NCBI RefSeq assembly: GCF_007279655.1
Contig: NZ_QKWN01000005.1
Coordinates: 1 to 58,983 of the forward strand
Source of the DNA: Robertkochia solimangrovi
Lineage (GTDB): Bacteria; Bacteroidota; Bacteroidia; Flavobacteriales; Flavobacteriaceae
DNA: 58,983 nt
Direction of reading: 5' to 3'
Position 1 is the stretch's first letter. Every line of letters starts with the position of its first letter. The translations under genes and the position numbers were made by a program. This document shows positions 23,405 through 25,337 of the stretch, piece after piece. The notes below the pieces were generated by a model. It was not told the origin of the DNA. It did no database searches and saw nothing but the letters and a program-made list of their open reading frames with translations.

Positions 23405-24346
23405 CTACATTAAAAACTTAGAACTGATACTGGTATTGTGGTGTACGCGATGCATAACATCTGCGAACAGGTCGGCACAGCTCAGTACTTTGATCTTTGG
23501 TGATTCCTGTTTCAATGGAATGGAATCGGTAACGATCAGTTCAGTAAGTTTTGAATTTTCGATACGCTCATAGGCATTACCTGAAAGCAGGGCATGTGTG
23601 GTGATGGCTCTAACGCTCAATGCACCTCTTTCGATCATCAGATCGGCAGCCTTGGTCAGGGTTCCTGCGGTATCTACCATATCATCTACAAGAACGACAT
23701 TCTTATTGGTCACATCACCGATCAGTTCCATATGATCGATCACGTTCGCTTTTTTACGTTGTTTATAACAGATCACCACGTCACTGGCAAGGAATTTCGA
23801 ATAAGCGTATGCTCTTTTCGACCCCCCCATATCAGGAGATGCGATGGTCAGGTTATCGAGTTTCAGACTTTCGAGATAAGGAAGGAAAATGGTTGAAGCA
23901 AAAAGGTGATCAACCGGTTTTTCAAAGAATCCCTGAATCTGGTCCGCGTGGAGGTCCATAGTAATAATACGGGTCGCTCCTGCAGCCTCGAGTAATTTAG
24001 CAACCAGCTTCGCTCCTATCGGAACACGCGGCTTATCTTTACGATCCTGGCGTGCCCATCCGAAATACGGCATTACTGCGGTAATGTGACGAGCGGAAGC
24101 GCGTTTAGCTGCATCGAGCATCAACAACATTTCCATAAGGTTTTCCGGACCCGGATTGGTAGAACCGATAATAAATACACGTGATCCGCGCACCGATTCT
24201 TCGAATGAAGGCTGAAACTCACCATCACTGTAACGTGAGAAGGAAACCTTCCCGAGTTCGGCTCCAAAGGCCCTGGCTATTTTCCCTGCTAATTCCGAAG
24301 TTTGCGTACATGCAAATATCTTTGGATCGGGCATTGAATAAGGCAT
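23405..24346 (-). CDS. prs: Ribose-phosphate pyrophosphokinase
   Basis: Makes PRPP from ribose 5-phosphate and ATP for nucleotide, His and Trp synthesis. The 313-residue class I enzyme shows the FSRYSDGEFQPSFEESVRG region and the ATP-binding YFGWARQDRK. The metal/ribose segment MDLHADQIQGFF and the PRPP-binding loop VVLVDDMVDTAGTLTKAA are also present. A perfect TAAATTTG element lies upstream on the same strand. The prs-rplY pair is conserved across Bacteroidetes. Confidence 0.97.
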   Translation of the reverse strand: MPYSMPDPKIFACTQTSELAGKIARAFGAELGKVSFSRYSDGEFQPSFEESVRGSRVFIIGSTNPGPENLMEMLLMLDAAKRASARHITAVMPYFGWARQDRKDKPRVPIGAKLVAKLLEAAGATRIITMDLHADQIQGFFEKPVDHLFASTIFLPYLESLKLDNLTIASPDMGGSKRAYAYSKFLASDVVICYKQRKKANVIDHMELIGDVTNKNVVLVDDMVDTAGTLTKAADLMIERGALSVRAITTHALLSGNAYERIENSKLTELIVTDSIPLKQESPKIKVLSCADLFADVMHRVHHNTSISSKFLM

Positions 24347-24397
24347 TTAAAAAACTGTTTTATAGGTTGTTATTGTACTCGCTTTCAAAATGAGGTG

Positions 24398-24405
24398 CAA
24401 ATTTA
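24398..24405 (-). promoter_or_regulatory. -7 element of prs-rplY
   Basis: The minus strand reads TAAATTTG, an exact TAnnTTTG match 52 nt upstream of the prs ATG. It is divergent from the tRNA promoter at 24451-24478. Confidence 0.5.
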
Positions 24406-24450
24406 GAAATTTATTCGAAGACGGAAAGTATATTTGTTGGTATTTTTGTT

Positions 24451-24478
24451 TTGGAAATAAAAATATTTTATAGTTTTG
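24451..24478 (+). promoter_or_regulatory. Full promoter ahead of the tRNA-Leu array
   Basis: TTG (24451-24453), a 17-nt spacer and TAGTTTTG (24471-24478) fit the Bacteroidetes TTG-N17-TAnnTTTG promoter exactly. It is followed by a short hairpin (ACCGCTT / AAGCGGT near 24482-24501) and then by the truncated tRNA-Leu piece at 24512. It looks like the original tRNA-Leu promoter. The intact tRNA now lies about 430 nt further on, and no equal match precedes it. Confidence 0.75.
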
Positions 24479-24511
24479 CACACCGCTTCATGGAAAGCGG
24501 TTGAATTTAAT

Positions 24512-24535
24512 GCTCGAGTGGCGGAATTGGTAGAC
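24512..24535 (+). pseudogene. 5' fragment of tRNA-Leu
   Basis: Twenty-four bases identical to the first 24 of the intact tRNA-Leu at 24943: acceptor arm GCTCGAG, then the D-arm up to GGTAGAC. Identity then breaks off inside the D-arm, where a nested hairpin begins. After the hairpin the text resumes GCGC-T-GAT, resembling the next tRNA bases but degraded. No 3' half is present here. It is best read as the remnant of a target-site duplication or of a tRNA copy disrupted by insertion. Confidence 0.85.
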
Positions 24536-24570
24536 CTGTCTACCGATAGGCGGGCCTATCAAACGACAGG
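24535..24570 (+). repeat. Nested palindromic (REP-like) hairpin
   Basis: CCTGTC (24535-24540) pairs with GACAGG (24565-24570). Inside it GATAGGC (24545-24551) pairs with GCCTATC (24554-24560). It sits at the break in the tRNA D-arm. A diverged second version (TGTC/GACA outside, CTGCC/GGCAG inside) lies at 24853-24888. Confidence 0.85.
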
Positions 24571-24595
24571 CAGGCGCGCTTGATGAAATATTGAA
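24562..24595 (+). repeat. 34-bp direct repeat, left copy
   Basis: It matches 24882-24915 with two mismatches; the first 25 bases are identical (AACGACAGGCAGG followed by CGCGCTTGATGA). The two copies bracket the GIY-YIG gene exactly. Confidence 0.9.
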
Positions 24596-24601
24596 TTATT
24601 G

Positions 24602-24844
24602 ATGATCGTTTATGCACTTTCCAGTATCAACAGAAATTACATTTATGTAGGCATGACACAGAATCTGGAAGAAAGGTTTAAACGGCATAATGAAGGAAGA
24701 GAGAAAACGACAAAGCCGTATGCTCCGTTCTCAATTCTTTATCAGGAAGAATGTCCAGATCGAATCGCTGCTAGAAAGCGAGAAAAGTTTTGGAAATCTG
24801 GAATAGGTAAAGAAAAATTAAGAACTTTGAGAGATCAAACTTGA
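24602..24844 (+). CDS. Small GIY-YIG endonuclease-domain protein
   Basis: An 80-residue stand-alone GIY-YIG nuclease module. Its 'VYALSS ... YIYVGMT' strands correspond to GIY and YIG. The catalytic Arg lies in NLEERFKRH, and the Glu-containing helix REKFWKSGIGKEKL follows. ATG at 24602 is preferred to a TTG one codon earlier. There is no DNA-binding domain, unlike UvrC or large homing endonucleases. The gene is bracketed by 34-bp direct repeats and lies between a broken and an intact copy of tRNA-Leu. That arrangement suggests a minimal homing or mobile unit that targets the tRNA gene. Family membership is firm; mobility is inferred. Confidence 0.88.
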   Translation: MIVYALSSINRNYIYVGMTQNLEERFKRHNEGREKTTKPYAPFSILYQEECPDRIAARKREKFWKSGIGKEKLRTLRDQT

Positions 24845-24881
24845 AGTTCGAGTGTCTGACTGCCGAATGGCAGGCATATCT

Positions 24882-24915
24882 AACGACAGGCAGGCGCGCT
24901 TGATGACATACTGAA
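24882..24915 (+). repeat. 34-bp direct repeat, right copy
   Basis: Right partner of the repeat at 24562-24595 (two mismatches). It is preceded by GTTCGAGTG (24846-24854), possibly a decayed tRNA 5' end, and a weak hairpin. It ends 27 nt before the intact tRNA-Leu. Confidence 0.9.
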
Positions 24916-24942
24916 ATTAGATCTGAAGAGATCACACTATTA

Positions 24943-25024
24943 GCTCGAGTGGCGGAATTGGTAGACGCGCTGGATTCAAAATCCAGTTCTTTCGGGAGTG
25001 TGGGTTCGATTCCCACCTCGAGTA
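24943..25024 (+). tRNA. tRNA-Leu (anticodon CAA)
   Basis: An 82-nt class II tRNA without encoded CCA. The acceptor stem GCTCGAG (24943-24949) pairs with CTCGAGT (25017-25023), with a G-U first pair, and A73 is the discriminator. The anticodon stem CTGGA/TCCAG closes the loop TTCAAAA with CAA at 24977-24979. A long variable arm follows. The T arm is GTGGG/CCCAC with loop TTCGATT. It reads UUG codons. It has no convincing promoter of its own within about 95 nt, so read-through from 24451-24478 across the GIY-YIG gene is likely. Its last 16 nt form part of the island repeat. Confidence 0.96.
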
Positions 25025-25080
25025 CAGCGAAGCCTTGTGAAATGAAAATTTCGCAAGGCTTTTTTATTTTATTGAATTTC
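25009..25080 (+). repeat. 72-bp direct repeat (attL-like)
   Basis: It contains the tRNA-Leu 3' end (25009-25024) and its terminator, and recurs at 31707-31778 with a single mismatch (T25073 against G31771). A tRNA 3'-end direct repeat is the classic footprint of site-specific integration. Confidence 0.93.
25030..25067 (+). terminator. Terminator of tRNA-Leu
   Basis: AAGCCTTG (25030-25037) and GAAAT pair with ATTTC and CAAGGCTT (25054-25061), with one T/G mismatch in the stem and a GAAA loop, followed by a T-run. An identical copy lies at 31728-31765 in the distal repeat. Confidence 0.9.
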
Positions 25081-25337
25081 ACTGCTTCAATTTAACCTGC
25101 TTTATTTCAAATCTTACTTTTCCCATTACAATCCCTGAACTTAAACCCTGGAAATCAATTCACGAAATCACACCTCAACTTGAGATTTTCATGTTGCAAA
25201 ACAACAGTCAATTATCTAATTTTCATATATTTATGGTGTCCCGCGTCCACACCAAATAATTAACAACCTTCCAGATAGGTGTATTGCTTAAACATTATTG
25301 CTTTATGGTATAAAGGTGATTAATAAAATTTGAAATT
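25081..25337. other. Non-coding left end of the island
   Basis: About 260 bp between the attL-like repeat and the sulfatase gene. No integrase, tRNA or recognisable gene is present. TAAAATTTG near 25325-25333 resembles a promoter -7 box with one extra base. Confidence 0.5.

Follow-up and report, generated by a model that had tools for sequence, protein, structure and literature searches.

A minimal GIY-YIG nuclease gene between a broken and an intact tRNA copy: a putative small mobile element of Robertkochia solimangrovi and other Bacteroidota

Among described systems, the free-standing homing endonucleases of the GIY-YIG family in T4-like phages, SegB in particular, are the closest in behaviour to a gene carried by a 58,983-nucleotide (nt) stretch of Robertkochia solimangrovi DNA (contig NZ_QKWN01000005.1 of assembly GCF_007279655.1, positions 1 to 58,983; this whole stretch is referred to as the window). 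Passages of PMC2988022 describe seven free-standing endonuclease genes of T4 that appear to be promoterless and use upstream promoters, free-standing enzymes that cut hundreds to thousands of base pairs (bp) from their own gene, and segB itself, which lies between tRNA-Arg and tRNA-Ile with a regulatory RNA structure (a hairpin). SegB has further been described, in a passage of PMC13096335, as promoting the tandem amplification of a transfer RNA (tRNA) segment in phage T6. The window gene resembles segB in being a GIY-YIG gene outside an intron that adjoins tRNA genes. In contrast to segB, which lies between two tRNA genes, the Robertkochia-type genes are cellular, encode about 80 amino acids and are framed by two copies of one and the same tRNA, one broken and the other intact. 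Comparison with related loci makes it probable that the locus in the window represents the free-standing type of homing endonuclease, in the form of a small selfish element with a minimal GIY-YIG gene as its only gene.

The locus in the window and its empty counterparts

All features of the locus are read on the forward strand. It begins with a promoter-like site, TTG-N17-TAGTTTTG (24451..24478), called on the basis of the Bacteroidota promoter consensus and read as the promoter of the original tRNA-Leu gene; in the empty sites L079 and L083 (L and G denote our loci and genomes), sequence resembling it directly precedes the intact tRNA. A preliminary description of this DNA had already recognised that the promoter leads into the first 24 nt of tRNA-Leu(CAA) (24512..24535; 100% match to nt 1-24 of the intact gene), followed by a nested hairpin, and the leader between the two additionally contains a short inverted repeat (ACCGCTTC..GAAAGCGGT, 24482..24501) with no counterpart in these two empty sites. 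The copy is indeed broken in its D-arm, by a nested palindromic insert of the CCTG..CAGG family (24536..24574) at a position, GGTAGA^CGCGC, that is common to many relatives. It does not end there, as had been supposed, but resumes after the insert as diverged tRNA-like sequence (CGCGCTTGAT versus CGCGCTGGAT, 24575..24595), a stretch that in relatives extends to tRNA nt 38 (L004), 42 (L024) or 58 (L062). The nuclease open reading frame (ORF) comes next (24602..24844), with 80 residues from its ATG, the length originally given, or 81 if the TTG at 24599 is the start, and it matches PF01541 with 62.8 bits (E=3.7e-17). The intact tRNA-Leu(CAA) (24943..25025) and what reads as a terminator-like stem and T run (25028..25066) close the locus. 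The starts of the two tRNA copies are 431 nt apart, and the forward ORF between them is the GIY-YIG gene. The intact tRNA was also rightly described as lacking its own promoter: TAnnTTTG is absent from 24845-24942 and occurs twice in 24440-24511.

The nuclease had been thought to lie between 34-bp direct repeats. The actual pair is 60 nt long with 85% identity (24536-24595 and 24856-24915), and its second member is the left end of a second, decayed unit (24846..24942) containing a degenerate tRNA 5' end (GTTCGAGTG), palindromes, the repeat copy and a remnant of the ORF 3' end. The likeness of its right end to the ORF 3' end gave an alignment score of 19.5, matched by none of 500 shuffles, and under stricter scoring one of 500 shuffles scored as high. 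Because the left end repeats the first unit and the right end resembles the end of the ORF, we read this segment as a second copy of the element minus its nuclease. High copy number in the genome was ruled out by a single nuclease match and two copies of the repeat, and tRNA-Leu(CAA) itself has one full match there, the 24-nt fragment, and one full-length match at 77% identity, which is tRNA-Leu(TAA).

Within the genus, the nuclease stands 5' of tRNA-Leu(CAA) in three of five Robertkochia genomes (G000, G002 and G003), while in the other two (G001 and G004) a promoter and an uninterrupted tRNA occupy the same place beside prs, which we take from its sequence to be the gene for ribose-phosphate pyrophosphokinase. 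The comparison with empty sites suggested in the preliminary description therefore finds an empty tRNA gene at the same locus, and the closest Prs pair of the five genomes (95.5% identical) consists of one occupied and one empty member, G003 and G004. The gene counts as free-standing in that it lies outside any intron or intein and that occupied and empty alleles of one site exist in Robertkochia. An isolated 35-nt piece of tRNA-Leu (nt 30-64, 97%; L089, G002 contig 6, 674830-674864) was also seen about 11 kb from the element.

We propose that the nuclease cuts the tRNA gene and that the element would then be copied in by break repair, leaving one tRNA copy broken and an intact copy on the other side. 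As the intact copy stays beside the broken one, the essential tRNA would not be lost. Where the broken copy is the 5' one, it would retain the native promoter and so drive fragment, nuclease and intact tRNA as one transcript, from which RNase P would release the tRNA.

Recurrence, targets and relatives of the nuclease

A scan of genome contigs with the window protein gave 68 loci, 50 of which have an intact same-strand tRNA closely downstream; in most of these 50 the upstream flank matches part of the same tRNA better than shuffled controls do, and several of the remaining loci are of a mirror form. This set, retrieved with the window protein as query, is skewed towards close relatives; a profile (A2, built from 28 nuclease sequences) was therefore used to search a family sample of 199 genomes, 62 of which contain matches (E<=1e-12). 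An intact same-strand tRNA lies within about 320 bp in 64 of the 89 loci obtained (window included; L178, whose ORF is in weak pieces, is absent from the count), namely downstream only in 43, upstream only in 18 and on both sides in three. We estimate, assuming roughly 50 tRNA genes per genome, that such adjacency would arise by chance in less than 1% of cases. Direct repeats between left and right flanks exceed shuffles in 54 of 88 loci (L157, at a contig end, was left out) versus none of 18 control positions. Both polarities occur, so that either the 5' or the 3' part of the tRNA may be the broken copy; there are tandem arrays (eight ORFs in L160 and five in L213), and in some loci the nuclease ORF is broken by internal stops. 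Across the phylum, 84 of 296 genomes have matches at E<=1e-15, with up to 15 in a single genome, and 24 of the 26 best-scoring new loci have an adjacent tRNA. The recurrence in other genomes on which the preliminary description had staked its reading thus extends to many genera and about 18 tRNA isoacceptors, and its term, a minimal tRNA-targeting unit that regenerates a working tRNA, appears apt for the recurring arrangement, with cutting and movement as presumed steps. Recurrent palindromes, the mirror-image form, tandem arrays, stop codons inside tRNAs and non-tRNA targets go beyond that description.

The adjacent isoacceptors are Leu(CAA, CAG, GAG, TAA), Arg(CCT, TCT, TCG, ACG), Ser(GGA, TGA, GCT), Met(CAT), Ala(GGC), Pro(TGG, GGG), Asp(GTC), Asn(GTT) and Cys(GCA), where the target of most upstream-form Asn loci and the Ser(GCT) of L180 is assigned by adjacency, without a demonstrated fragment, and the labels Gln (L075) and Val (L186) are left out of the count. 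On a tree of 151 nucleases, 118 of them labelled, tRNA identity changes 26 times, whereas 200 shuffles averaged 66.8 changes and never gave fewer than 62. With an alignment of just 80 columns and roughly half of its forks unresolved, the tree shows clustering rather than exact history. L019 and L119, which duplicate the loci L004 and L001, respectively, were left off it. Both the tree and the count of stop codons reported below pool the biased contig set with the family sample, the latter count adding the phylum sample, and the pooled sets may hold one genome twice (the L028 and L123 proteins are identical).

Several loci depart from the common layout. In L160 and L198, initiator tRNA-Met 3' halves that start near the anticodon precede the GIY-YIG genes, in L160 as an array of eight, and no intact tRNA lies within the fetched stretch of either. 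In Galbibacter and Salinimicrobium (L026 2250-2470 and L056 2255-2490), the tRNA-Leu(CAA) downstream of the nuclease breaks off near nt 43. A complete but different tRNA-Leu (GCCGAAGTGGTGG..) comes next, along with a similar terminator and a recurring GGTACAACATAGGTACAACA sequence, and may belong to a further element that carries an entire tRNA of its own. L053 (1930-2490) has an intact tRNA-Leu flanked by two fragments, a 5' one whose acceptor strand differs and a 3' one that carries palindromes in its D- and T-arm; as the acceptor end of this downstream 3' fragment matches the intact tRNA, a clean import of a foreign tRNA was rejected, and the exchange may have run in either direction.

The encoded protein is a member of the GIY-YIG superfamily. 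Y15, R25, H29, E61 and K65 are invariant in 35 aligned sequences, and catalytic roles are assigned to them by analogy with I-TevI; a KSGxGKEKL-like C-terminal motif is common to the tRNA-linked sequences of profile A2. The profile relatives among solved structures are UPF0213 proteins (1ywl, E=3e-7; 1zg2, E=1.4e-5), followed by I-TevI (1mk0) and SLX1. UPF0213 proteins, which we take to be YhbQ-like (COG2827), have the same size and belong to the same fold family, but the tRNA-linked A2 nucleases are distinguished by the KSGxGKEKL-like motif and by being tied to target-gene fragments and palindromes.

One clade of the tree (L006, L009, L195, L197, L203 and L205) has an adjacent tRNA in none of its six members, and another (L008, from Robertkochia marina, L169, L171, L177, L208 and L167) is likewise not tRNA-linked. 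In four members of the latter (L008, L169, L171 and L177), the first part of an NAD-dependent epimerase/dehydratase gene, reaching as far as the codons for its glycine-rich loop, is duplicated 5' of the nuclease, and the intact gene, whose identity Pfam confirmed for L177 and L169, lies 3' of it; L178, which is not in the tree, has the layout of L177. The fragment and the intact gene start differ at four positions in 32 nt in L177. The copy ends in TTTAACCCGTGAAATGATG-like sequence, where the proximity of a stop codon to an ATG would be expected to couple translation. In L208 the epimerase gene start lies before the nuclease, whose GIY-YIG frame continues without a stop to the end of the fetched stretch (a 455-amino-acid open frame), so that the nuclease may be fused to its target gene. 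L167 has a GIY-YIG gene of the epimerase clade without an adjacent tRNA, and its flanks, which share a 19-nt repeat, may come from one interrupted protein gene.

These layouts bear on whether the arrangement might instead serve the host, the tRNA duplication and hairpin copy regulating or protecting tRNA supply (for example as decoys against tRNA-cutting defence systems or toxins) with a domesticated nuclease. Such a role would accommodate the persistence of conserved residues and the stable tRNA association within clades, and it has a phage parallel in SegB, which amplifies its tRNA segment against a tRNA-cutting defence system according to a passage of PMC13096335. However, presence is patchy (62 of 199 genomes, and three of five Robertkochia at the site), ORFs are broken in some loci, epimerase genes show the same layout and the hairpin sequence is not fixed, which together make a host-serving function improbable.

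Known insertions into tRNA genes also differ from the element proposed here. Group I introns with homing endonucleases occur in bacterial tRNA genes and share with it an endonuclease gene inside a tRNA gene, but here an intact tRNA lies beside the broken copy and splicing is unneeded. Rfam at its gathering threshold, which a degenerate intron might escape, returned tRNA as the sole match in 24300-25200, with no intron family, and the nuclease scores 23.4 bits against the NCBIfam intron-endonuclease model, under its cut-off of 56.05. Integrase-type elements (phages, and integrative and conjugative elements) use tRNA genes as attachment sites, and their insertion likewise leaves an intact tRNA; in contrast, the present units measure a few hundred bp, break either end of the tRNA, carry palindromes in the broken copy and have no integrase, none being found by ORF reading of the 431-nt interval between the tRNA copies of the window. 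A plain tRNA duplication or an intron was rejected on the Rfam result, the intact copy beside the broken one and the occurrence of the layout on unrelated tRNAs and a protein gene. Phage origin was rejected as well, with weak matches in 11 of 50,697 phage records (best E 4e-5; none covers 80% of the query), as was plasmid origin, with no match in 72,556 plasmid records.

Palindromic hairpins, promoters and stop codons

In the tRNA copies that are not intact, a palindromic hairpin often interrupts one arm or takes its place. For example, a CCTGCCTGCCGGCAGGCAGG-like hairpin is found in the D-arm of Leu, several Arg and elongator Met copies and in the anticodon or T-arm of the mirror form (L124, L128, L136 and L044), while a TCACGCC..GGCGTGA-like hairpin replaces the T-arm of Pro(TGG) (L190 and L181) and the anticodon arm of Pro(GGG) (L204). 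Asp and one Asn locus have TCCCGA..TCGGGA (L173, L192 and L207), and initiator Met has TCCGCC..GGCGGA (L166, L172 and L176). In 120-nt windows on the fragment side (those under 80 nt excluded), the median hairpin score is 19 (n=115) compared with 12 in controls (n=200), and scores of at least 24 occur in 24 of 115 versus one of 200. The hairpins belong to dispersed families: the CCTG pattern, with up to two mismatches on the forward strand, has 12-74 matches in each of the five Robertkochia genomes (12 in the genome of the window) versus 0-1 for its reversed control, and with one mismatch the CCTG palindrome occurs in 72 of the 199 family genomes, where reversed controls matched in five genomes (CCTG) or up to three times per genome (TCCGCC-type scan). 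By breaking homology with the intact copy, such hairpins may slow the precise loss of the element. Contig 1 of G105 contains some twenty TCCGCC..GGCGGA palindromes between 73 and 111 kb, at intervals of roughly 0.6 to 7 kb, which may mark an array of gene cassettes.

Short dispersed palindromes are characteristic of repetitive extragenic palindromic (REP) sequences and RAYT, an HUH tyrosine transposase. They also recall the GC clusters of yeast mitochondria, for which intron-encoded endonucleases were proposed as movers in a passage of PMC4478555, and that text cites work in which GC-rich palindromes flank tRNA genes in Neurospora mitochondria. The elements described here share with both systems short, dispersed palindromic repeats. 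In contrast to REP-RAYT, the palindromes lie in the arms of tRNA copies beside a GIY-YIG gene, which is the sole family-assigned gene between the tRNA copies of the window; an HUH tyrosine transposase is absent from that interval, the rest of the genome not having been searched for RAYT.

It is conceivable, if rather unlikely, that the whole is a bipartite system of REP/RAYT type in which the GIY-YIG enzyme mobilises clade-specific dispersed palindromes and tRNA genes are a safe site for the coding copy. The palindrome family largely tracks nuclease clade and target, some nucleases without an adjacent tRNA are flanked by other palindromes (L195, L197, L203 and L205), and two of the three tested palindromes are commoner in nuclease-bearing genomes. 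In counts that include copies inside elements and ignore kinship among genomes, CCTG palindromes on the forward strand are present in 27 of 32 genomes with a nuclease at E<=1e-20 versus 43 of 167 others (p=5e-10), at least three copies in 19 of 32 versus 18 of 167; at least three TCCGCC-type copies occur in six of eight genomes with the initiator-Met clade versus 10 of 191. The third, TCACGCC..GGCGTGA of the Pro clade, was dropped because its co-occurrence with the nuclease is unconvincing: under a strict pattern it is missing from five of 10 genomes with a Pro-linked match, and its highest count (12, in G124) comes from a genome without one. Palindromes also occur in genomes with no nuclease match, reaching 28 CCTG copies in G127.

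That the intact tRNA would be transcribed through the nuclease from the former promoter, as first suggested, is supported at the sequence level by where TAnnTTTG falls across loci. In the 78 five-prime loci whose fragment aligns with a score of 11 or more, the motif lies within 40 nt 5' of the fragment in 33 and 5' of the intact tRNA in 10, compared with 12 of 29 three-prime loci in which it lies 5' of the intact tRNA and seven of 500 random windows. Some elements carry a promoter for the intact tRNA, since L020 and L031 have a promoter-like motif 5' of both copies.

The nuclease stop codon lies inside the downstream tRNA in 36 of 97 loci (18 at nt 8-10, as TAG, and 11 at nt 21-23), before the tRNA in 57 and across its start in three, and in one the frame runs through the whole tRNA; at Leu(CAA) it precedes the tRNA in 39 of 43. 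Where the stop is internal, RNase P cleavage at the tRNA 5' end would strip it from the mRNA and in this way limit nuclease synthesis. In L034, L048 and L049 the GIY-YIG protein ends in ..LSxDR* (as in CCTGTCTACCGACAGGTAG), its stop codon falling within the palindrome located at the 3' fragment of the tRNA.

A broader generalisation can be offered tentatively. In Bacteroidota, and perhaps their neighbours, there may be a general class of mobile elements that regenerate the gene they enter, made up of clades of GIY-YIG nucleases of about 80 amino acids, each tied to one conserved target (either a tRNA isoacceptor or the first part of a gene for a dinucleotide-binding enzyme) and to one palindrome family that it mobilises itself. 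In such a class the hairpin would be swapped into an arm of the displaced tRNA copy, the host promoter taken over, and the stop codon placed in the tRNA, which would make RNase P processing and translation of the nuclease mutually exclusive.

Movement, descent and significance

If the element moves, its history should be tied less closely to the host than that of its neighbour prs, of which a long-enough sequence stands beside 45 of the 49 Leu(CAA) loci, the 45 used for comparison. Distances between nucleases correlate with those between Prs proteins at r=0.27, whereas pieces of Prs correlate with the rest of Prs at 0.75-0.80, and the nuclease has the same nearest neighbour as Prs in 13 of 45 loci, compared with 17-24 of 45 for the pieces. 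The weak tie is what would be expected of a gene that also moves. A topology test was dropped as evidence because it does not discriminate: the nuclease on the prs topology was rejected (difference in log-likelihood, delta lnL, 148), and so were prs pieces against the rest of prs (65-116).

Several observations weigh against a mobile element. The correlation with prs distances is real (none of 999 permutations was as high), and the prs-tRNA-Leu neighbourhood is kept in many genera, which makes a long vertical stay at one site possible. In Robertkochia, an approximately unbiased (AU) test that excluded L191, L075 and L043 is compatible with a single origin of the three elements (p=0.58), so independent gain in each species was set aside as unsupported, and gain and loss are indistinguishable among the five genomes. 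The intact tRNA of the occupied G000, G002 and G003 is identical in sequence to the empty target in G004, so that self-cutting must somehow be avoided. Fragment ends vary, and hence no precise cut site can be named; 25 of the 89 loci have no adjacent tRNA; and cleavage and movement are steps that we infer. The conserved neighbourhood, the unrejected single origin and the prs correlation would also suit an account without any mobile element, in which tRNA genes are prone to duplication and a small GIY-YIG gene, inherited vertically, lies beside them by chance. This account is very improbable, as it must contend with about 18 tRNA targets tracked by clade, the same layout at a protein gene, both polarities, tandem arrays and empty sites, and the clade with no tRNA-adjacent member in six indicates that the tRNA link is not a general property of such nucleases. 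Empty sites, polarities, arrays, target-specific clades and the weak tie to the host favour a mobile homing-type element, whose nuclease genes probably move infrequently and reside at their target for a long time.

The family of minimal elements is widespread and apparently undescribed. Titles and abstract openings, from a literature with subscription journals mostly outside it, contained no account of GIY-YIG genes nested in cellular bacterial tRNA genes, and a full-text search returned no paper linking GIY-YIG with repetitive extragenic palindromic sequences or with tRNA genes in flavobacteria. Literature searches likewise found neither a broken and an intact cellular tRNA around such a nuclease, nor arm-replacing palindromes, nor a stop codon inside a tRNA, and the sections consulted of a paper on the GIY-YIG superfamily (PMC1564403) contain nothing on tRNA genes as insertion sites.

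The findings would readily explain why partial tRNA genes accompany small GIY-YIG genes in Bacteroidota, and they link dispersed palindromic repeats with a candidate enzyme. The nuclease is minimal, without an obvious added DNA-binding domain, and as each clade is associated with a single tRNA, it becomes testable how such a small GIY-YIG domain chooses its target. If the proposed RNase P step is true, it would be a natural case of tRNA processing that destroys an mRNA by removing its stop codon. If the reading as a homing-type element is true, this would be a very small autonomous mobile element, a single 80-codon gene within a few hundred bp, able to invade an essential tRNA gene while leaving its host viable.

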